Under the pieces are notes generated by a model that ran no database searches, was not told the origin of the DNA, and saw only the letters and a program-made list of their open reading frames with translations. Positions 12,954 to 43,954 of a DNA stretch of 64,000 nt are shown in pieces (position 1 is the stretch's first letter; each line of letters starts with the position of its first letter). The translations under genes and the position numbers were made by a program. This stretch comes from Verrucomicrobiota bacterium (lineage in GTDB: Bacteria; Verrucomicrobiota; Verrucomicrobiia; Chthoniobacterales; UBA10450), in the NCBI GenBank assembly GCA_003218975.1, contig QHPD01000106.1:1-64000 (forward strand), read 5' to 3'.

Positions 12954-13066
12954 GTCATCCCGAGCCGCGCAGACGGCGAGCGACCTCGCATTTCGTGGTG
13001 GAGCATGCAAGTCACCTCGCGTGGCACGCCAGCTTGTGTGAGGTCCCTCACTTTGTTCCGGATGAC
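12954..13066. repeat. Dispersed GTCATCC...GGATGAC repeat, long copy
   Basis: It begins GTCATCCCGAGCCGCGCAGA and ends TTTGTTCCGGATGAC, with terminal inverted GTCATCC/GGATGAC. Related copies lie at 16148-16231 (inside uvrA) and 19013-19078. It covers the first codons of the longest uvrA ORF, which therefore begins inside a repeat. Confidence 0.75.
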
Positions 13067-16000
13067 ACCGCGTCCCGTGCTGCGAAAATTTGCGCTCGGC
13101 GTCCGCATCTGGAATTGTTTCCAGTGGGTTCGAAGGTTGGGAAAAAAAAGCGCGTCAGAGTGTCGCCCGCGAACGATTGCATCGAGATTCGTGGGGCGCG
13201 CCAGAACAATCTCAAAGGCATCGACATTGATCTTCCCCTGGGGAAATTGACGCTAGTCACGGGCCCCAGCGGGAGCGGCAAATCGAGCCTGGCATTCGAG
13301 ACCATTTACGCCGAAGGCCAGCGACGTTACGTCGAAACATTCAGCCCTTACATGCGACAGTTTCTCGATCGCATGGACAAGCCGCGTGTGGACGACATCC
13401 GCGGTATCCCTCCTGCGATCGCAATCGAGCAATCGAATCCGGTCAAGAGCTCGCGCTCGACTGTCGGCACGATGACCGAGATCAACGATTATTTGAAACT
13501 TCTTTGGCCACGTGTCGCTCACGCCTTCTGTCCAAATTGCAGCCGCGAAATCCGGCCTGAAACCGCGCAATCGATCGCCCAGCAAGTGCTGCATGACTGC
13601 GCAGGAAAAAATATTCTCATCACTTTTTGGGTCGCAGTCCCAGCGAAAACGCAGCCGCGCGCATTTTTCGATTTCCTTCAGCAGCAGGGTTATTTGCGCG
13701 TTTGGATCGAAGACAAAGTCGTGCGCGTCGACGCCGATCCAAAAATCAAACGGTTTGGCGCCCGGGTGCAGGTAATTCAGGATCGCATCGCAATCACTGA
13801 AGAAAATCGCGCGCGATTAGTTGAGGCAATCGAAACGGCGCTGCGTTTTGGGAAAGGCAAGATCAACATCATTCCAAGTGTAGAGGCAGGCGTGTCGCCT
13901 GCGATCTCAACGAACGCGGCCGACACGGCCGCCACTGCAGCTCTTCCCTTCTCCACCGGCTGGCACTGTGCCCACTGCGATCTCGACATCCGCCCGCCCA
14001 CACCCGGGCTGTTCAGTTTCAATAATCCGCTCGGCGCGTGCCCGGAATGTCGAGGATTCGGCCGCACCATTGCGATCGATCTTAACAAAGCGATTCCCGA
14101 CCGTAGCTTGAGTATCAAACAAGGCGTGGTGCGCGTTTTTCGCGGCGCCGAGTTTGGCGAATCGCAGAAAGATTTGCTTCGGGCATGCGCGCGCGAGGAG
14201 ATCGACGTCAATGTGCCCTTCGAGGAATTGCCCAAGGCCGATCAGGACTTCGTTATCGAAGGCGAAAAGCGATCCGGCGATTACACCGAAGAAGATTACG
14301 AATACGATCGATGGTACGGCGTCCGCGGCTTTTTTCGGTGGCTCGAGAGCAAGACTTACAAGATGCATGTGCGCGTTTTGCTCAGCCGCTATCGCGCCTA
14401 CGTCACCTGTCCCAGCTGCAAGGGCGGACGCTATCAGCCAGAAACGGTCAATTACAAAATCTGGGGAGCGCACGCGCCCTCGCGTGCCGTTTCCGGCGCC
14501 TCGCCGGAAACCCTTCTTACCCTTCCACAATTTCAGGCGCTTTCGATTTCCGATGCGCGCGATCTTCTCCGCAAGATCGACATCCCTGCGGGCGACAAAA
14601 CCGTCCAGATGTTGCGTAATGAAATCAGCGCGCGCCTCAATTATCTTTGCGAGGTCGGCGTCGGTTATCTCACGCTCGACCGGTCCACGCGCACATTGAG
14701 CGGCGGCGAAGTCCAGCGCGTTAACCTCACAACATGTCTTGGCGCATCACTAGTCAACACACTCTTTGTTATGGATGAACCGAGCATCGGTTTGCATCCA
14801 CGCGACGTGGGCCGGCTGGTGCGTGTGATGCACGATTTGCGCGACAAAGGCAACACGCTGCTGGTGGTCGAGCATGAAGAACAAATCATTCGCGCCGCCG
14901 ACAATCTGGTCGACATCGGGCCGGGACGCGGCGAACGCGGAGGCGAGTTGGTTTGGAATGGCGCGCTCGACGATTTTCTTTTGCGCTCTAGCCGATCCTT
15001 AACGCGTGATTATCTCGCGGGCCGAAAATCGATTCCCATCCCAAAATCTCGCCGGAAATCCACATTATCGATCAAGATCATTGGCGCGCGACAGCACAAC
15101 CTTAAAAACATCGACGTCGATCTTCCATTGGGCGTTTTCACATGTGTCACCGGCGTTTCCGGTTCCGGGAAATCCACGCTGATTCACGACGTGCTCTACC
15201 GGAATCTGCTGATCGCGAAGGGGCAGTCGTCCGAACAGGAGCCGGGTGCATGCAAATCAGTCGCCGGCGCGCATCGCGTCCGCGACGTAATCATGGTGGA
15301 TCAGGCACCGCTTGCGCGCACGCCGCGGTCAACGCCGCTGCTTTATTTGGGGCTTTACGATCGTGTCCGCGAATTGTTCGCCGCGCAACCGGAAGCAGTA
15401 TCACAGGGACTCACGGCGGGCACATTCTCGTTTAATTCCGGCAGCGGCCGCTGTGAACGTTGTTCCGGCACAGGATACGAGAAAATTGAGATGCAATTTT
15501 TGAGCGATCTTTTTGTGCGCTGCGCAGAATGCGAAGGCAAACGGTTTCAGTCGCATGTTCTGAAAGTTCAACTGCACGGCAAATCAATTCACGATCTGCT
15601 CAAACTCACCGTAAGCGAGGCGATCGCATTTTTCGCGCAAATCGGCGAGGACAAGAGCTTGTCCGAACCGCTTGGCGTGCTTGAAGAAGTAGGCCTTGGT
15701 TATCTGCGCTTAGGGCAACCTCTCAACACTCTTTCCGGCGGCGAATCGCAAAGACTGAAACTGGTTGGCCACCTCGCGGAATCAGAAATCGCCCGATCCC
15801 TGAATGGGAAGGGAACTCCGATGAAACGCGAGCACGCGACGAAAGTCGGTGTCGGCAATCTGTTTATCTTCGATGAGCCGACCACCGGACTCCACTTCGA
15901 TGACGTGGCCATGCTGCTGCGATTATTTCAGCGGCTGGTCGATGGCGGTCATTCCATCGTGGTGATCGAGCACAATCTCGAAGTGATCAAATGCGCCGAT

Positions 16001-18910
16001 TGGATTGTCGATCTTGGTCCGGAAGCAGGAGATGCGGGCGGCGATGTGGTCGCTGTCGGAACTCCAGAGCAAATCCCGAAGGCGGGTGCATCACACACAG
16101 GACATTTCTTACAACGAGTGTTCACACAATCTCGGAAAAAGTTGCATGTCATCCCCAGCCGTGAAGACGGCGAGGGACCTCGCAAAGCACCGCGCGAGTT
16201 GGAGAGGTCCTTCGCTTACGCTCAGGATGACAACGTGGAAATGGCTCGAGCTGCTGAAGAAGCTCCACGTTTTCGCGTAGATGGAGCGAATGGCGCAATC
16301 CAGGTCCACGGTGCGCGCGAGCACAACCTGAAAAACATCGACGTAAAAATTCCGCGAGAGCAGCTCGTCGTAATTACCGGTCTGAGTGGCTCCGGCAAAT
16401 CCACGCTCGCATTTGATATTCTTTTCGCGGAGGGGCAACGACGTTTTCTCGACAGTATGTCGCCATATGCACGGCAATTCGTCGAGCAGCTGGAGAAGCC
16501 GGATGTCGATTTGATCAGCGGGTTGCCTCCCAGTGTCGCGATCGAGCAGCGAGTTACACGCGGCGGAGGGAAATCGACCGTCGCTACGGTGACGGAGGTG
16601 TACCACTTTCTCCGATTGCTTTTCGCAAAGACCGGAACGCAATTTTGCCCGGACTGTGATTTGCCGGTGGAGAAAAAAAGCCTCGCCGCCATTGCCAAAC
16701 AAATTGAATCAACAGCGAAGCGCGGGCCGGTGAGAGTGCTTGCGCCACTGGTCAAGGCTCGAAAAGGTTTTCACACCGAAGTCGCGCGCTGGGCGGAACG
16801 TCAGGGATTCGACACGCTGTATGTGGATGGAAAATTGGTTCCTATCCCGCATTTTCGAAAATTGGAGCGGTTCAAAGAGCATACGATCGACGTGGTCGTT
16901 AGTCTCATCGATCGGAAGCGAATTTCGAAAACGCGCGAAGTCGTTCGTCGGGCGCTGGAGATCGGCCGCGGAACGGGGCGTCTGCTTGACTCCAAAAACA
17001 GGCTCACAGTCATGAGCACCGAAATGAGCTGTCCAAACTGTGGCCGCGCGTTTGAGGAGCTCGATCCGCGTTTGTTTTCGTTTAATTCACCTCACGGGGC
17101 CTGTGAAGAATGCGGCGGATTCGGCGAAATTTGGGACCAGGATCTGCAAACCGGTGCCAGCCCCGACGGTGATTCGGTTCTGGAAACCGAGCTCGCTGCC
17201 GAGCGCGAGTCCGAACGGATCGAGGAAGGCGAAGCGCGGGAATGCCCGAGTTGTCACGGTTCGCGCTTGAACGCCGTGGCGCGTTACGTGCGTGTCCAAG
17301 GTTACACGATCGATCAGTTCACGAATCTTTCGGCCAGTGAAGCAGCGCGCAAGGTCGAGAGATTAAAGTTCCGGGGAACGCATCAAACGATCGCTGCCGG
17401 TCTCGTTCCTGAAATTCAGCAGCGATTACGTTTCATGGAAAAAGTTGGCCTCGGCTACCTCGCGCTCGGGCGCTCGGCTAAGACGTTAAGCGGTGGAGAA
17501 TCGCAGCGGATTCGGTTAGCAGCACAACTCGGCTCGAACCTGCGCGGGGTCCTTTACGTACTGGATGAGCCGACAATCGGTCTTCATCCGCGCGATAACT
17601 TGCGATTGCTCGACACGCTCACCGCGCTGCGGAACAAAGGAAACTCGCTGATTGTTGTCGAACACGACGAGGAGACGATGCGGCGCGCCGATCACATCGT
17701 CGATCTTGGTCCGCGTGCAGGAATTCACGGCGGTGAGGTCGTGGCGACTGGCACGCTGCGCGACGTCGAAAGGAATCCAAGTTCCGAAACGGCACGCTGC
17801 CTGAAAACACCGCTTCACCATCCTACCCGCGGATTACGCCGGTCTCTGCGCGACGTTGAAGACTGGATCGAAGTCCATGGCGCGAGGGCGAATAATTTGA
17901 AGGATATCGATGTTCGATTCCCCGTTGGCAGGCTTTCAGTGATCACAGGAATTTCCGGCAGCGGTAAATCGACATTGATGCACGAGGTAATTTGGCCTGC
18001 GGTGCGCGACCAGCTGAAAGAAAGAAAACGCGCAGGAAATGGCGATCTGTTCAAACTGGTTAGTGGCGCGCAAGAGATCGAAGCCGTTTACGAGGTCGAT
18101 CAATCGCCGATCGGGAAAACGTCCCGTTCGACGCCGGGCACCTACGTCAAGGTGTTCGACGAGATCCGGAATCTTTACGCGCAACTGCCGGTCTCCCGCG
18201 TGCGCGGCTATTCCGCGAGCCGATTCTCGTTCAACGCCGAAGGCGGTCGTTGCGAGACTTGCAAGGGTCAGGGCGTGATCAAACTGGAGATGAATTTTCT
18301 GCCGCGTAGCTATGTGCCGTGCGAAGACTGCGGCGGTAAACGTTACAATCCGCAAACGCTTGAGGTACTTTACAGCGACAAATCGATCGGCGACGTGATG
18401 GAAATGACGATCGAAGAAGCGGCGGAATTCTTTTCCGCGCATCCGAAAATTGCGCGTCCGCTTTCCCTTTTGGTCGATACCGGACTTGGGTACCTTAAGC
18501 TGGGACAACCGAGTCCGACGCTGAGCGGCGGCGAAGCGCAGCGGCTGAAGCTGGTGACGCAACTAAAACGGGGCGTTAGCCGTGCGGCGGATGAGCGGAT
18601 TCGCAAAATGCGCAGGCCAGGCTCGACATTGTATTTGCTTGAGGAGCCCACGATTGGCCTGCACATGGCCGACATTGAATTGCTTCTCAACGTGCTGCAT
18701 CGGCTCGTCGACGAAGGAAACACGGTGATTGTCATCGAACACAATCTTAGCGTGATCTCAGAAGCCGATTACATTGTTGATCTTGGCCCAGAGGCCGGCG
18801 CGGATGGAGGCGAAGTTGTCGCCTGCGGGACGCCGGAACAAGTCGCAAAGAACCGCGTGAGCCGCACCGCACCGTTTTTGCGAAAGACGCTTCAAGCGAC
18901 GCGCCGCTAA
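12995..18910 (+). CDS. uvrA: Double-length excinuclease ABC subunit A (tandem UvrA)
   Basis: Two UvrA units fused in one 1971-codon ORF, a form known in Chlamydiae. UvrA finds bulky DNA lesions and loads UvrB. Four ABC ATPase domains are visible: Walker [28 protein letters not shown] and GISGSGKST; signatures [24 protein letters not shown] and LSGGEAQR; Walker [22 protein letters not shown] and LEEPTIG (Glu for Asp in the fourth). Zn-binding CxxC knuckles occur in both halves. Three dispersed repeats are translated in frame, near residues 295-316, 489-507 and 1052-1079. The GTG at 12995 lies in another repeat copy; conserved sequence starts near residue 60, so GTG 13124 or 13160 may be the real start. 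Confidence 0.93.
13880..13941. repeat. Palindromic dispersed repeat inside uvrA
   Basis: TGTAGAGGCAGGCGTGTCGC ... GCCGACACGGCCGCCACTGC matches the intergenic copy at 10012-10076. It is translated as [19 protein letters not shown] between two conserved UvrA segments and keeps the frame. Confidence 0.8.
14461..14514. repeat. CTGGGGAGCGCACGCG-family repeat inside uvrA
   Basis: CTGGGGAGCGCACGCGCCCT followed by CGCGTGCCG and the palindrome TTTCCGGCGCCTCGCCGGAAA. It is the same family as the intergenic copies at 22308-22443 and 42821-42873. It is translated as [17 protein letters not shown], an insertion between NYKI and the conserved [13 protein letters not shown] segment. Confidence 0.8.
16148..16231. 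repeat. GTCATCC...GGATGAC-family repeat inside uvrA
   Basis: GTCATCCCCAGCCGTGAAGA ... GCTTACGCTCAGGATGAC with the family's inverted termini. It is translated in frame as [13 protein letters not shown] ... RSFAYAQDD in the linker between the two UvrA halves. Confidence 0.85.
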
Positions 18911-30107: not shown

Positions 30108-30482
30108 CTAAAGCTTGTCGCTCGCGGACGTCACCGACGGCACGAGCGCGATCCTTAGCCCTCCCGAGAACGGCAGATCCGGCTGGGGAATCTTCACGTG
30201 AAGAGCGGGGAAAAACGGGTGGCACAGCCGCACGATCACGGCCTGCTTGCCGCCGCCGAGAAAAAAATCGCGTACGGCATAGCTCAATGGACAAGCGGCG
30301 TCTAACACGCCGAACTGCCGCTCGAAATCGGCAAAACTGTTGATCACAATCGGATCATCTACCGGTCCTTGCTTGGCCCGGCCGATAAACGTCGTAATCG
30401 AGGTGGCGACGCCACTGATGCTGTGCACTCCACTGGGGATTTCTTCAATATAGACGCCCGGATAATTGGGTGAGAATGGCAT
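30108..30482 (-). pseudogene. N-terminal fragment of a contractile tail sheath protein
   Basis: 124 residues beginning MPFSPNYPGVYIEEIPSGVH, then SITTFIGRAKQGPVDDPIVI and PLSYAVRDFFLGGGKQAVIV. This is the standard start of phage or extracellular contractile injection system sheath proteins, which are normally several hundred residues long. The ORF ends after a short non-family tail (VPSVTSASDKL), and no tube, baseplate or further sheath sequence follows. A good GGGGAG ribosome site precedes the ATG. It is best read as a truncated relic of an injection system, though a short expressed protein cannot be excluded. Confidence 0.75.
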
Positions 30483-33596: not shown

Positions 33597-33746
33597 GGAA
33601 TGTTTGAGTGTCTATGCATTATACACCCCAAAACGGGAAGAGTCTTAGATTTTTCGCCTTTCCACTGAAAATCTCGCCGCAACTTTGAGTGGCCTTTCAT
33701 TCTCGGGCTCACTGGCGCGATCGGTATCCTCGGCTAAATTTTGCGG

Positions 33747-34988
33747 ATGTTTTCGGAGACGATCGAGTTGCGCGGTCATATCATCGATTCGCTTATTCTG
33801 CCGAAGGTGCTGGATCAAATTCTGACTCACGGCGCAAATTTCAAGATAGGCGAGATCAAGATCGGCAAAAAACGTGCCGACCAAAGCTTCGCACGAATCG
33901 AGGTCTCTGCTGAGACGAGTGAAGCGCTCGATGAATTGATTCTGCGCCTACGACAGCACGGCGCCGAAGTGGACAAACGCGCGGATGCGCAGATCGCCAA
34001 AGCACCAGCGGACGGCGTTTTTCCGCGGGACTTTTACGTGACGACCAACCAGCAAACCTTCGTCCGGTTTGACGGCAAAGAGATCGAAGTGCGCCCTGCC
34101 ATGATGAACAGCGCGATTGTTGTGGATCGAAAAAGACGGTCCGCCCGAGCCGTAAAGTTCTTCGACGTCAGTAAAGGCGACGAGATTGTGGTTGGTCACC
34201 AGGGCGTGCGCGTCGTGCCGGTGCAGCGTTCGACGTCCCGCACGGATCTTTTTCAGTTCATCAACGCCATTATCGATGCCGACGAACCGAAATCGGCCAT
34301 CATTCGCGAGTTGGCTGGTGAATTGCAACGGGCGCGCGCGGCCAAAGGCAAAGTCGCAGTGGTCGCCGGGCCTGCGATTGTGCGGACTGGTGCCGGCCAG
34401 CATCTGGTGCGCCTCATCGAATCGCGATACGTCGATCGTCTTTTTGCCGGAAATGCGTTTGCCGCTTACGACGTCGAACGGGCGTTGTTCGGCACTTCTT
34501 TGGGAATGAGTTCCGAGCTGGCGTTCGCACGCGGCGGGCACGAGAACCTCATGCGAGCGGTCAATGTAATCCGCGAAGCAGGTGGAATCGCCGCGGCCGC
34601 TCAAAAAAAGATTCTGACCGGCGGCATCATGCATGCCTGCGTCCGTCACAACGTCGATATCGTGCTGACCGGCTCGATCCGTGACGAGGGACCGATTCCG
34701 GGAGTAACAACAGACGCGATCGAAGCGCAAAAAGTCATGCGTGAAAAACTCGCCGATGTGACGCACGCTTTGCTGCTGGCGACTATTCAACATTCGCTCG
34801 CGGTGGCGACCATGCTCGCGCCTACCGTGAAAACTGTCTGCGTTGATATCGATCCCTCGGCAGTAGAGAGAGCAGTGGAGCATCAGCCGTTGCAATCAAT
34901 CGGCTTGGTTACAGATGTGGAACCGTTCCTGCGGGAACTCGCCGATTGCGTCACCGAAGCCGAATCCTCTAGCGGCGCAAAGAAGTAG
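33747..34988 (+). CDS. LOR/SDH-type ornithine cyclodeaminase (TIGR00300-like)
   Basis: 413 residues from ATG 33747 (the track uses TTG 33741). Beginning SETIELRGHIIDSLILPKVL and containing NSAIVVDRKRRSARAVKF and MHACVRHNVDIVLTGSIRDE, it follows the archaeal/cyanobacterial family first named LOR/SDH. Characterised members, such as the C-terminal half of cyanobacterial AgrE and a methanococcal protein, convert ornithine to proline with release of ammonia. The next gene encodes a probable arginine dihydrolase, whose product would be its substrate. It is unrelated to the classic mu-crystallin-type OCD. Confidence 0.82.
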   Translation: MFSETIELRGHIIDSLILPKVLDQILTHGANFKIGEIKIGKKRADQSFARIEVSAETSEALDELILRLRQHGAEVDKRADAQIAKAPADGVFPRDFYVTTNQQTFVRFDGKEIEVRPAMMNSAIVVDRKRRSARAVKFFDVSKGDEIVVGHQGVRVVPVQRSTSRTDLFQFINAIIDADEPKSAIIRELAGELQRARAAKGKVAVVAGPAIVRTGAGQHLVRLIESRYVDRLFAGNAFAAYDVERALFGTSLGMSSELAFARGGHENLMRAVNVIREAGGIAAAAQKKILTGGIMHACVRHNVDIVLTGSIRDEGPIPGVTTDAIEAQKVMREKLADVTHALLLATIQHSLAVATMLAPTVKTVCVDIDPSAVERAVEHQPLQSIGLVTDVEPFLRELADCVTEAESSSGAKK

Positions 34989-35010
34989 CTGCGGGTAAAT
35001 TGTCGATCGT

Positions 35011-35820
35011 ATGCGCGAGTTGCTCCTTTGTCCGCCGGACTATTACGGAATCGAATACGAGATCAATCCCTGGATGAGCCGCGCCCGCGGCGCCGAGGCC
35101 GCCCTTGCACAAAAGCAGTGGAACGAATTGCACGCGACGCTTTCAAAATTGGATTGCAAGATTCATTTGATCGCCCCGCAGCGGGGACTTCCGGACATGG
35201 TTTTCACGGCCAACGCCGGGCTCACGATTGGTCGCAAATTCATTCCCAGTAATTTCCGGCACAAAGAGCGCGCGGGCGAAGCGCCGCATTTCGCGCGCTG
35301 GATGGAAGAACATGGCTATCAAGTCGCGTGGTTGCCGGATGATCTCTACTTCGAAGGCGAAGGCGATGCTCTCTTCGGCGGCGACGTTCTTTTTTGCGGT
35401 TACAAATTTCGTTCTGATATCCAATCGCATCGCGCCGTCGCGGACATGCTCGGTTGCCTGGCCGTTTCAGTTGAGCTTGTCGATCCGCGTTTTTATCATC
35501 TCGACACCTGCTTTTGCCCGCTGCCCGATGGCGCGGCGGTCTGGTTTCCGGCGGCCTTCGATGAATACGGGCAACGCGCCATCCGCGAACACGTGGCCGA
35601 CTTGATCGATGTCCTACCGGAAGAGGCAATGCATTTTTCATGCAATGCCGTCGTGCTGGAGCGCGACATTGTGCTCCCGGAAGGCGCGCCGAAACTCGTC
35701 GCGATTCTGCAGGACCGCGGCTACCGCTGTCACGAGTTGCCAATGAGCGAATTCATCAAGGCTGGCGGCGCATGCAAATGTCTGGTGATGTTCATGCCGC
35801 AACGAGAGAGCGCGTTGTAG
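35011..35820 (+). CDS. Amidinotransferase-superfamily arginine dihydrolase (ArgZ/AgrE N-domain type)
   Basis: 269 residues, beta-alpha propeller of the DDAH/arginine deiminase superfamily. Motifs are LPDMVFTANAGLTIG (residues 54-68), EGEGDALFGGDVLFCGY, the catalytic His region FYHLDTCFCPLPDG, and the C-terminal Cys in KAGGACKCLVMFMPQ. The TAN motif, with Asn instead of the Asp of true deiminases, resembles ArgZ-type dihydrolases that make ornithine, CO2 and two ammonia. It starts 22 bases after the ornithine cyclodeaminase gene. Dimethylargininase is the main alternative. Confidence 0.8.
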   Translation: MRELLLCPPDYYGIEYEINPWMSRARGAEAALAQKQWNELHATLSKLDCKIHLIAPQRGLPDMVFTANAGLTIGRKFIPSNFRHKERAGEAPHFARWMEEHGYQVAWLPDDLYFEGEGDALFGGDVLFCGYKFRSDIQSHRAVADMLGCLAVSVELVDPRFYHLDTCFCPLPDGAAVWFPAAFDEYGQRAIREHVADLIDVLPEEAMHFSCNAVVLERDIVLPEGAPKLVAILQDRGYRCHELPMSEFIKAGGACKCLVMFMPQRESAL

Positions 35821-35849: not shown

Positions 35850-37607
35850 CTACCGTTCCCGTTTTGCGCGTAACGCGTGCTCGATTTTACCCAGCGGCAA
35901 ACAGTTCATCACGTCCGTTTTCGTCAGCCAGCCTTTGCGCGCGATGCCGATCCCGAACCATAAATCCTGCAAACGCTCGGCGCGATGCGCGTCCGGGTTG
36001 ATGACGCATTTGACGCCTTTTTGTTTCGCCATTGGCCACCAACGCCAGTCGAGATCGAGCCGTTTGGGCGCCGCGTTTAGCTCGATCCACGTCCCGGTGC
36101 GCGCCGCCGCGTCGAGAATGGCTGGGATGATGATCTGGTAAGACTCGCGTTTCAGCAATAACCGGCCGGTCGGATGCGCCAGCATGGTGACAAACGGGTT
36201 TTCCATCGCACGAACCATGCGTCCGGTCATTTCCGCTTCGCTCAGACCAAGAGCAGAATGAACAGAAGCGACCACGAAATCGAGTTGCGACAAAATTTCA
36301 TCGGGAAAATCAAGTGAACCGTCGCGAAGAATGTCGCATTCGACTCCCGCGAAGAGCCGAAAACCGTCGAATTTTTTGTTCAGCTTTCGAATCGCGGCGA
36401 CTTGCGCGAACAATTTTTTCTCGTCGATCCCGTGCGCTTGAATCTGGCTGCGGCTGTGATCGGCAATGCCGAGATACTCCAGCCCGAGCGCCTGTGCGGC
36501 TTCCGCCATTTCTTCAAGGGAGTTGTGGCCGTCGCTCGCCAGCGTGTGGCAGTGAAACGTGCCACGCAAATTTTCCTTCTCGATCAATTTCGGAATCGCA
36601 TTTTTCTCGGCGGCTTCGAACTCGCCCCAATTCTCCCGTAGCTCCGGCGGAATGAAATCGAGGTCCACTGCCCGGTATAAATCGGCTTCATCGCGCACCT
36701 TCGGAATTTTGTTGGCCGGTTTTTTCTTCTTCGCTTTCGCGTCGACCGGAAGCGGGGCCAGCCGGTACTCGTTAAGCGTCCAGCCCCGTTTGAGCGCGCG
36801 GCTGCGTAACTCGATGTTGTGCTCCTTATTGCCAGTAAAATAAGCCAGTGCAAACGGGTATTCCGCGGTGCTCACCACTCGCAGGTCACACTGGACTCCG
36901 GAACGAAGCCGCACACTCGACTTGGTGGGGCCCTGCGCGATGACCGATTCCACCAGCGAATGGCCGACGAAAAATTTCGTGATCGTTTCCGGTTTTTTTG
37001 TCGCCACCAGAAGATCGACATCGTGCACAATTTCTTTTCGCCGCCGATAACTGCCCGCAACCTCTGTATGGAGCGCGTCCGGATGAGCAGCGAAATCGCT
37101 TCTTAATGTCTCCGCTTCATGTGCGATTTGGCCGAATTGGAAATAACCGGAATGCCGGGTTCGTTCCTCGATCGCTTTGCAGATTTTCGCTTGCGTCGTT
37201 TCGCCAAAGCCGGGTAGCTCCGCGACGCGGCCGGTTTCGCACGCTTTTAGCAATTGCTCAATCGAGCTGATCTGGAGTTTCTCGTAAAGGGCTTTGATCT
37301 TTTTCGCGCCGAGACCCGAAATCGAGAACAATTCCAGGATGGCCGCCGGAAATTCCGCGCGCAGCTCTTGCAGATATTTCAGCGAACCAGTGGCGGCGAG
37401 CTCTTTGATCTTGAGCGCGATGCTTTTGCCGATGCCGGGAATTTTTCCCAACGCTTCTTCATCCTGCAGGTCCGAGATGTTTCCACCAAATGTTTCGATC
37501 GCGCGCGCGGCGTTGACGTACGCTCGAATCTTGAAAGGATTCTCGCCTTTCAATTCGAGCAACGTGCCGATTTCCTCCAAAACAGCGGCGACTTCACTTT
37601 TGGTCAT
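35850..37607 (-). CDS. polX: Bacterial family X DNA polymerase / 3'-5' exonuclease (PolX)
   Basis: 585 residues; gap-filling repair polymerase fused to a PHP nuclease. N-terminal 8-kDa-like domain (GENPFKIRAYVNAARAIETF) and helix-hairpin-helix (LGKIPGIGKSIALKIKEL). The nucleotidyltransferase motif is AGSYRRRKEIVHDVDLLVAT with the metal Asp pair. The PHP domain from about residue 345 has GTFHCHTLASDGHNS, GIADHSRSQ and LAHPTGRLLL, the expected metal-binding His/Asp set. Normal length and order. Transcribed convergently with the arginine-catabolism pair. Confidence 0.95.
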   Translation of the reverse strand: MTKSEVAAVLEEIGTLLELKGENPFKIRAYVNAARAIETFGGNISDLQDEEALGKIPGIGKSIALKIKELAATGSLKYLQELRAEFPAAILELFSISGLGAKKIKALYEKLQISSIEQLLKACETGRVAELPGFGETTQAKICKAIEERTRHSGYFQFGQIAHEAETLRSDFAAHPDALHTEVAGSYRRRKEIVHDVDLLVATKKPETITKFFVGHSLVESVIAQGPTKSSVRLRSGVQCDLRVVSTAEYPFALAYFTGNKEHNIELRSRALKRGWTLNEYRLAPLPVDAKAKKKKPANKIPKVRDEADLYRAVDLDFIPPELRENWGEFEAAEKNAIPKLIEKENLRGTFHCHTLASDGHNSLEEMAEAAQALGLEYLGIADHSRSQIQAHGIDEKKLFAQVAAIRKLNKKFDGFRLFAGVECDILRDGSLDFPDEILSQLDFVVASVHSALGLSEAEMTGRMVRAMENPFVTMLAHPTGRLLLKRESYQIIIPAILDAAARTGTWIELNAAPKRLDLDWRWWPMAKQKGVKCVINPDAHRAERLQDLWFGIGIARKGWLTKTDVMNCLPLGKIEHALRAKRER

Positions 37608-43000: not shown

Positions 43001-43954
43001 TCATCTTCCGGGCGGGGCCGATGGCAATACCCGGCCATACTCGGATGTCTTGCCGTGCATCTCGAAGTAGTGGTACGCCTCGAGAGCGACGTCGCTAATG
43101 GCGCGCCCCGCAGCTTTCTCGTCGCGGTCGTAAGCGGTCATCACGCTGATGGCAAACGGACGGTTTTGCGCATAAACGATTCCTGAGTCCGTCCGCACAG
43201 CTTCCAACTCTCCGGGCTTGTTAGCCACCTGAACATTCTCGGGCAAATAACGCGGAATGTAACTCTGCTTCGATGTCGAAAGCTGTTTGATGAACTCCGC
43301 GGTTGCTTGCTTGTCTAACACCTTCTCTTTGTAAATAGCTTCCAACAGCCGAACCATTTCCTGCGGCGTGGCGACGTTCTCGTCGCCACGCCGAGCGGCT
43401 GCGACATCCATCATTTTTCGGCGCAACATCGTTTTCGACAGTCCAAGGCTATGAAGCATTGCGTTTACGTTATCTTTGCCCACGCGATCGATGAGAACGT
43501 TGGTGGCAGCGTTATCGCTCACTGTAACCATGAATTGAGCCAGGTCGCGGTTGGTAACGCGTGTCACACCGGCAGTGAGACCAGCCATGATCCGGCTGTC
43601 TTCGACAAGGTCTTTGGGATCGAAGGTATAAATGTCGTCCAACCTGGCTTTTCCTTTTGCTCCTGCGCGCGCTTCTTGGTCCTGACGATACAGTTCCAGG
43701 AGGATCGCGATTTTGATCGAGCTGGCAGCGGGAAACACGCGGTCAGCGTTGCGCAAGAGAACTCGACCGTCGGTGAGATCGAGAATGGCCACACCCATCA
43801 CGCCATCGAGTCGGTTGGCAATTTCATCAACGCGCGTCTCCAGCTTTTTCCAAAGCAAATCGCTGCCCGTGTCGCGCGGTGCTGCTTCAGGTTTCTGCTG
43901 ACCAAAAGCGTTCGCGGCTAATGCGAGGCCAATAGAGAATGCGATGACCCTCAT
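43001..43954 (-). CDS. Class A beta-lactamase-fold serine hydrolase with altered active site
   Basis: 317 residues with a signal peptide (IAFSIGLALAANAFGQ). The S-x-x-K motif is AASSIKIAIL (about residue 77) and the SDN loop is VSDNAATN, as in class A enzymes. The omega loop reads LRRKMMDVAAARRGDENVAT, with Met where the deacylating Glu166 is expected, and the KTG strand reads NKPGELEA. Without Glu166 efficient penicillin hydrolysis is unlikely; a DD-peptidase-like or sensor role fits better (inference). Periplasmic. Beta-lactamase activity remains possible through another base. Confidence 0.82.
   Translation of the reverse strand: MRVIAFSIGLALAANAFGQQKPEAAPRDTGSDLLWKKLETRVDEIANRLDGVMGVAILDLTDGRVLLRNADRVFPAASSIKIAILLELYRQDQEARAGAKGKARLDDIYTFDPKDLVEDSRIMAGLTAGVTRVTNRDLAQFMVTVSDNAATNVLIDRVGKDNVNAMLHSLGLSKTMLRRKMMDVAAARRGDENVATPQEMVRLLEAIYKEKVLDKQATAEFIKQLSTSKQSYIPRYLPENVQVANKPGELEAVRTDSGIVYAQNRPFAISVMTAYDRDEKAAGRAISDVALEAYHYFEMHGKTSEYGRVLPSAPPGR

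Follow-up and report, generated by a model that had tools for sequence, protein, structure and literature searches.

A likely arginine dihydrolase beside a remodelled ornithine cyclodeaminase homologue in Udaeobacter-like Chthoniobacterales

The window analysed here—64,000 nucleotides of contig QHPD01000106.1 from a Verrucomicrobiota bacterium—encodes a likely arginine dihydrolase (ADH) directly behind a homologue of ornithine cyclodeaminase (OCD) whose active site has been reshaped. With a probability of about 0.6, the dihydrolase converts arginine to ornithine and ammonia, its neighbour acts as a changed ornithine enzyme or as a non-catalytic partner, and the ordinary route dependent on the nickel-pincer nucleotide (NPN) is unlikely. 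The initial annotation described the two genes as a split arginine-to-proline pathway. The dihydrolase half of this description stands on residues, tree and gene context. The step to proline is in doubt, because invariant OCD residues are lost, the lineage bears neither LarC nor LarE, and relatives have deleted the catalytic part of the OCD gene.

Both open reading frames lie where they had been placed, 22 bases apart (Table 1). For the OCD homologue, the ATG at 33747 was taken as start, with a TTG also present at 33741. Its description as a LOR/SDH-type protein is borne out by matches to PF04455 (residues 4–101, 1.7e-33), PF21571 (1.6e-18) and PF21570 (5.3e-75), and the TAN motif (N68), catalytic histidine region (H163) and C-terminal cysteine (C257) ascribed to the second protein are all found. 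The 3.06 Mb assembly of the window genome is 97% complete, and its nearest named relatives are Spartobacteria/Chthoniobacterales metagenome-assembled genomes, one of them called Candidatus Udaeobacter. Elsewhere in the window, a 1971-residue frame (12995–18910, + strand) consists of two UvrA proteins head to tail (NF001503 well over the cut-off in several stretches). On the − strand, a 124-residue frame (30108–30482), probably a fragment, resembles by eye the N-terminus of a contractile-tail sheath protein and has no NCBIfam match, and a class A beta-lactamase-like protein (43001–43954) scores 121 bits against a cut-off of 200.

Table 1. Features of the OCD–ADH locus, in window positions.
Feature	Position	Strand	Remarks
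OCD homologue (TIGR00300 / ArgZ-like C-terminal region), derived active site	33747..34988	+	413 aa from ATG
PF04455 (LOR/SDH conserved region), N-terminal domain	33747..34049	+	residues ~1–101; stand-alone 79–83 aa protein in related genomes
PF21571, ArgZ-like C-terminal first region	34053..34304	+	residues 103–186; W112E, D121N, S177D, E179D vs outgroup
PF21570, Rossmann-fold region	34308..34940	+	residues 188–398; substitutions at near-invariant positions
Intergenic gap, 22 bases	34989..35010	+	between OCD stop and ADH start
Likely ArgZ/AgrE-type arginine dihydrolase (ADH), 269 aa	35011..35820	+	N19, N68, E115, D119, R134, H163, D165, C257 kept
PolX family DNA polymerase	35850..37607	−	convergent neighbour, outside pathway; G167 has same neighbour

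A check of pair conservation found the OCD–ADH pair in dozens of genomes; hence, the observation is not due to chance. Within the window's family the pair occurs in nearly every locus covering the region. Among 58 loci of other lineages (L029–L086), OCD lies directly upstream in the same orientation in 26, and two more carry it somewhere in the locus. As this order is widespread across Planctomycetota, Nitrospirota and Myxococcota, the split arrangement is ordinary rather than special. The pairs of these phyla share order, strand and short gap with the window pair (26 loci directly adjacent); they differ in that their own OCDs keep the conserved residues and that LarC is present in 27 of 28 genomes tested. 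The cyanobacterial proteins AgrE (Alr4995, Anabaena) and ArgZ (Sll1336, Synechocystis) unite the same two enzyme parts in one chain, and the fusion in opposite order described in the initial annotation was confirmed for AgrE and Sll1336 (ADH 7–270, OCD 285–690). The catalytic residues of their ADH part are identical and the OCD-like region can be aligned end to end, whereas the window bears two genes with OCD first, changed invariant OCD residues, and a host without LarC and LarE. Fused ADH–OCD chains were also found in another verrucomicrobial family (L087, L088).

The downstream protein is a hydrolase of the amidinotransferase fold; among solved structures it comes closest to the ArgZ domains of AgrE and Sll1336, the latter matched at 1e-73. 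Aligned with ArgZ—whose catalytic residues are N71 (TAN), the E118/D121 region, H168 and C264—the protein keeps every catalytic position, including the two that were changed in Sll1336 variants of known structure (the N of TAN and the final Cys). Against the NCBIfam arginine dihydrolase model NF052232 it reaches 281 bits, below the curated cut-off of 450. This cut-off is narrow, since Planctomycetota and Nitrospirota pair members and a fused verrucomicrobial chain miss it likewise. Judged from these sequence comparisons, the protein is likely an arginine dihydrolase yielding ornithine and ammonia.

Quite improbable, by comparison, is that it acts as a dimethylargininase or another guanidine hydrolase. 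Such a reading draws on its position below the curated cut-offs of dihydrolase and Mtb-type dimethylargininase models alike (281/450 and 253/300), and on the AN of the TAN motif, which is common to actinobacterial proteins annotated as dimethylargininases. These proteins (NF045659) resemble ADH in fold and in the catalytic Cys, His and Glu. They bear AAN at the place of TAN, and TAN is thus ruled out as a marker that separates the two activities; of the proposed alignment of the TAN and Cys regions, the conservation of the ArgZ residues holds and this diagnostic use fails. However, ADH is nearer to ArgZ (46% identity) than to the actinobacterial proteins (37%), its FYHLDTCFCPL region is as in ArgZ and unlike the actinobacterial YHLDTALAVL, and it is consistently paired with an ornithine-enzyme homologue—the two NF045659 records examined have no OCD neighbour. 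The curated dimethylargininase cut-offs are all missed (NF045658 34.6/450, NF045659 252.6/300, NF045660 72.5/340). Clustering with dimethylargininases, named beforehand as the outcome that would speak against a dihydrolase, did not occur: the actinobacterial proteins occupy a separate long branch, apart from the window protein, in a quickly computed, weakly resolved tree with long branches and moderate support for the ArgZ clustering.

For the upstream protein, the picture is more intricate. It matches TIGR00300 over the full length with 405.7 bits, just under the cut-off of 410.8, and the related genome G013 reaches 412.7. The family OCDs were aligned with an outgroup of 29 sequences, drawn from Planctomycetota, Nitrospirota, Myxococcota and fused Verrucomicrobia together with AgrE, ArgZ and the archaeal 3c2q. 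In this outgroup, 60 positions of the Rossmann region are conserved to at least 95%, and these were scored. Genus g141 keeps 97.5% of these, g132 93% and g136 90%, followed by g142, g138 and g135 (83–86%), g137 (80%), g2 (75%) and the window genus (74%). Conserved N-terminal positions are kept to 92–100% throughout the family while the catalytic ones erode. The window OCD carries H213R, H241Y, H267N, H268L, D314E, L348Q, G354A, N355T, P358A, R379H and G380Q, and does hence not retain the invariant TIGR00300 residues H213, H241, H267, H268, D314, G354, N355, R379 and G380. The four histidines do not vary in any of the 29 outgroup OCDs, whether archaeal, bacterial or cyanobacterial. H267N is common to the whole family, g141 included; in the G277 OCD, positions 213 and 241 are occupied by Q and position 265 by S, and in g142 the frame persists without its GTSLG motif. 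Stand-alone archaeal TIGR00300 proteins (the PDB 3c2q chain; the MJ1480 N-domain, 3mgj) belong to the same family and comprise the same regions as the window OCD, but have intact GGHKHH, HDIE and GTSLG motifs.

The OCD tree unites the OCDs of the family in a single clade, g141 being nested among them, and the window genus with its near relatives sits on a long stem. This placement points to change within the lineage rather than import of an unrelated gene. Within the window genus, dN/dS is 0.094 for the Rossmann part and 0.081 for ADH—both indicating purifying selection—so the gene is not decaying; it was reshaped and then held. At two loci (L150 in G263 and L155 in G264), OCD groups with the g2/g1 OCDs and ADH with g136, which suggests a replacement of OCD next to an ADH that stayed in place.

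In NCBIfam 20.0, TIGR00300 carries the name "ornithine cyclodeaminase, nickel-pincer nucleotide-dependent". The proteins that synthesise NPN are LarB, LarE and LarC (PMC11770544). A literature search found no paper behind an NPN-dependent OCD. The published AgrE structure reportedly contains an NAD(H) site; if so, the missing Lar genes would be of no consequence. The NPN dependence of TIGR00300 is hence only a lead, as it rests on the NCBIfam name and has this reported NAD(H) site beside it.

With this lead in mind, the distribution of Lar genes in the Chthoniobacterales/Udaeobacter-like family can be appreciated. A full-length OCD is encoded in 61 of 83 genomes. LarC is found in five, all of genus g141, one copy being broken (G278), and LarE exceeds its cut-off in exactly four genomes, the g141 genomes with intact LarC. 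In three of these four OCD was detected, so that only 3 of the 61 full-length-OCD genomes have both genes intact. Neither LarC nor LarE over the cut-off was found in the window genome or in any genome of its genus. Incomplete assembly as the cause is ruled out by G013, which is 100% complete and, like the window genome, has OCD and neither Lar gene, together with several genomes of 95–98% completeness. In the Lar-positive genus, inspection by eye of the surroundings of LarC and LarE revealed no LarA-like frame. The broken LarC of G278 (L188, contig 34, 1787–2853) is split into several frames without LarE, and the copies of its relatives are intact in the same neighbourhood. Within g141, G278 is also alone in having an altered GHEN motif (GTQN); this one case suggestively links Lar loss and motif change. 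Both control genomes with TIGR00300 (M. jannaschii and H. volcanii) also have LarC. Outside the family, a co-occurrence of OCD and LarC is uninformative, since LarC is common there regardless (27 of 28 genomes with OCD vs 19 of 22 without OCD seen nearby).

The erosion goes further in three genera. In 11 genomes (g3, g134 and part of g135), the OCD gene is reduced to a frame of 79–83 codons that comprises the PF04455 domain only and lies 1–12 bases upstream of ADH. This remnant is under purifying selection (dN/dS 0.074), and on the—weakly resolved—ADH tree the deleted state requires at least five state changes. At the remnant loci (L134–L138, L175–L180), partial matches to OCD models are the sole NCBIfam matches; an apparent stand-alone N-domain in G289 is a contig end instead. 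Most simply, PF04455 would thus be of use to the dihydrolase, or to the cell, even where the cyclodeaminase is gone.

Proline supply bears on what the full-length protein might do. The window genome lacks ProA and has ProC, which is widely present in the family. With partial ProA genes set aside, ProA is absent from 45 of 48 Lar-negative genomes with the full OCD motif, and present in 7 of 16 genomes in which OCD is broken or deleted (Fisher p 0.0014, uncorrected for kinship; only three independent pairs on the tree, too few to test). That a broken or deleted OCD goes with ProA presence is thus suggestive, with too few independent events. Absence of ProA was rejected as proof of a proline-making OCD, given these three pairs and the existence of genomes without either. 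It does fit the report of a Udaeobacter genome without two of three proline-pathway enzymes (PMC7343977). G263 has ProA, unlike the remaining g136 genomes. No family genome exceeds the TIGR01885 cut-off for ornithine aminotransferase, which might provide pyrroline-5-carboxylate instead, and weaker class III aminotransferases occur everywhere. The retention of ProC points to continued production of some pyrroline carboxylate.

These observations bear differently on the possible roles of the OCD homologue. A working split AgrE—arginine via ornithine to proline and three ammonia, with OCD using only NAD(H)—is a rather unlikely reading. It is consistent with the full-length homology, the purifying selection on the whole OCD gene, the scarcity of ProA among Lar-negative genomes with full OCD, where OCD could supply proline, and the published Udaeobacter genome without two of three proline-pathway enzymes. 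On the contrary, all four otherwise invariant histidines are changed, these genomes retain ProC, which such an OCD would make unnecessary, and relatives without ProA (G167, g134) have lost the catalytic part. Possible, if still doubtful, is a protein that is no longer an enzyme and serves as structural or allosteric partner of the dihydrolase via its PF04455 domain. The sufficiency of the remnant alone beside ADH in 11 genomes argues for such a partner, as do the well-kept N-terminus in the face of eroding catalytic positions and the retained g142 frame without GTSLG. Nevertheless, selection on the Rossmann part is comparable to that on ADH in the window genus, which a mere appendage would not need. 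An OCD lineage freed from the nickel-pincer cofactor, either with its active site re-formed around another cofactor or performing a partial reaction that leaves pyrroline carboxylate for ProC, is unlikely; if true, it would let Udaeobacter-like bacteria, which seem auxotrophic for lack of ProA, obtain their proline from scavenged arginine.

Our preferred reading remains that a Udaeobacter-like soil bacterium of the Chthoniobacterales carries a unit of two genes for the breakdown of arginine. Herein, ADH would release CO2 and two ammonia from arginine and leave ornithine, without free urea, as predicted from its conserved catalytic residues and family. The OCD homologue would descend from the nickel-pincer/NAD ornithine cyclodeaminase family in a lineage in which the cofactor-making genes are absent. 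Its active site would have been remodelled stepwise—H267N family-wide, H241Y, then H213R and others toward the window genus—and the remodelled protein would then be conserved again in its new form. The constant unit of the family is the PF04455 domain plus dihydrolase, with an optional catalytic Rossmann part. In the window genus, the OCD homologue most likely retains an NPN-free ornithine-related function or assists the dihydrolase as a structural or regulatory partner; an ordinary NPN-dependent conversion of ornithine to proline appears unlikely on sequence grounds.

Within the family, the stated nickel-pincer dependence could thereby be tested on a natural series, all members of which lie beside the same dihydrolase: Lar-positive with intact site (g141), Lar-negative and nearly intact (g136), Lar-negative and remodelled (window genus), motif-broken (g142), and with the catalytic part deleted (g134, g3 and part of g135). 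A further implication is that the uncharacterised PF04455 domain may pair with the dihydrolase, and not with the cyclodeaminase alone. Finally, these findings are relevant to the question whether Ca. Udaeobacter, which ranks with the most abundant bacteria in soil and is reported to be without two of three proline-pathway enzymes (PMC7343977), really is a proline auxotroph.
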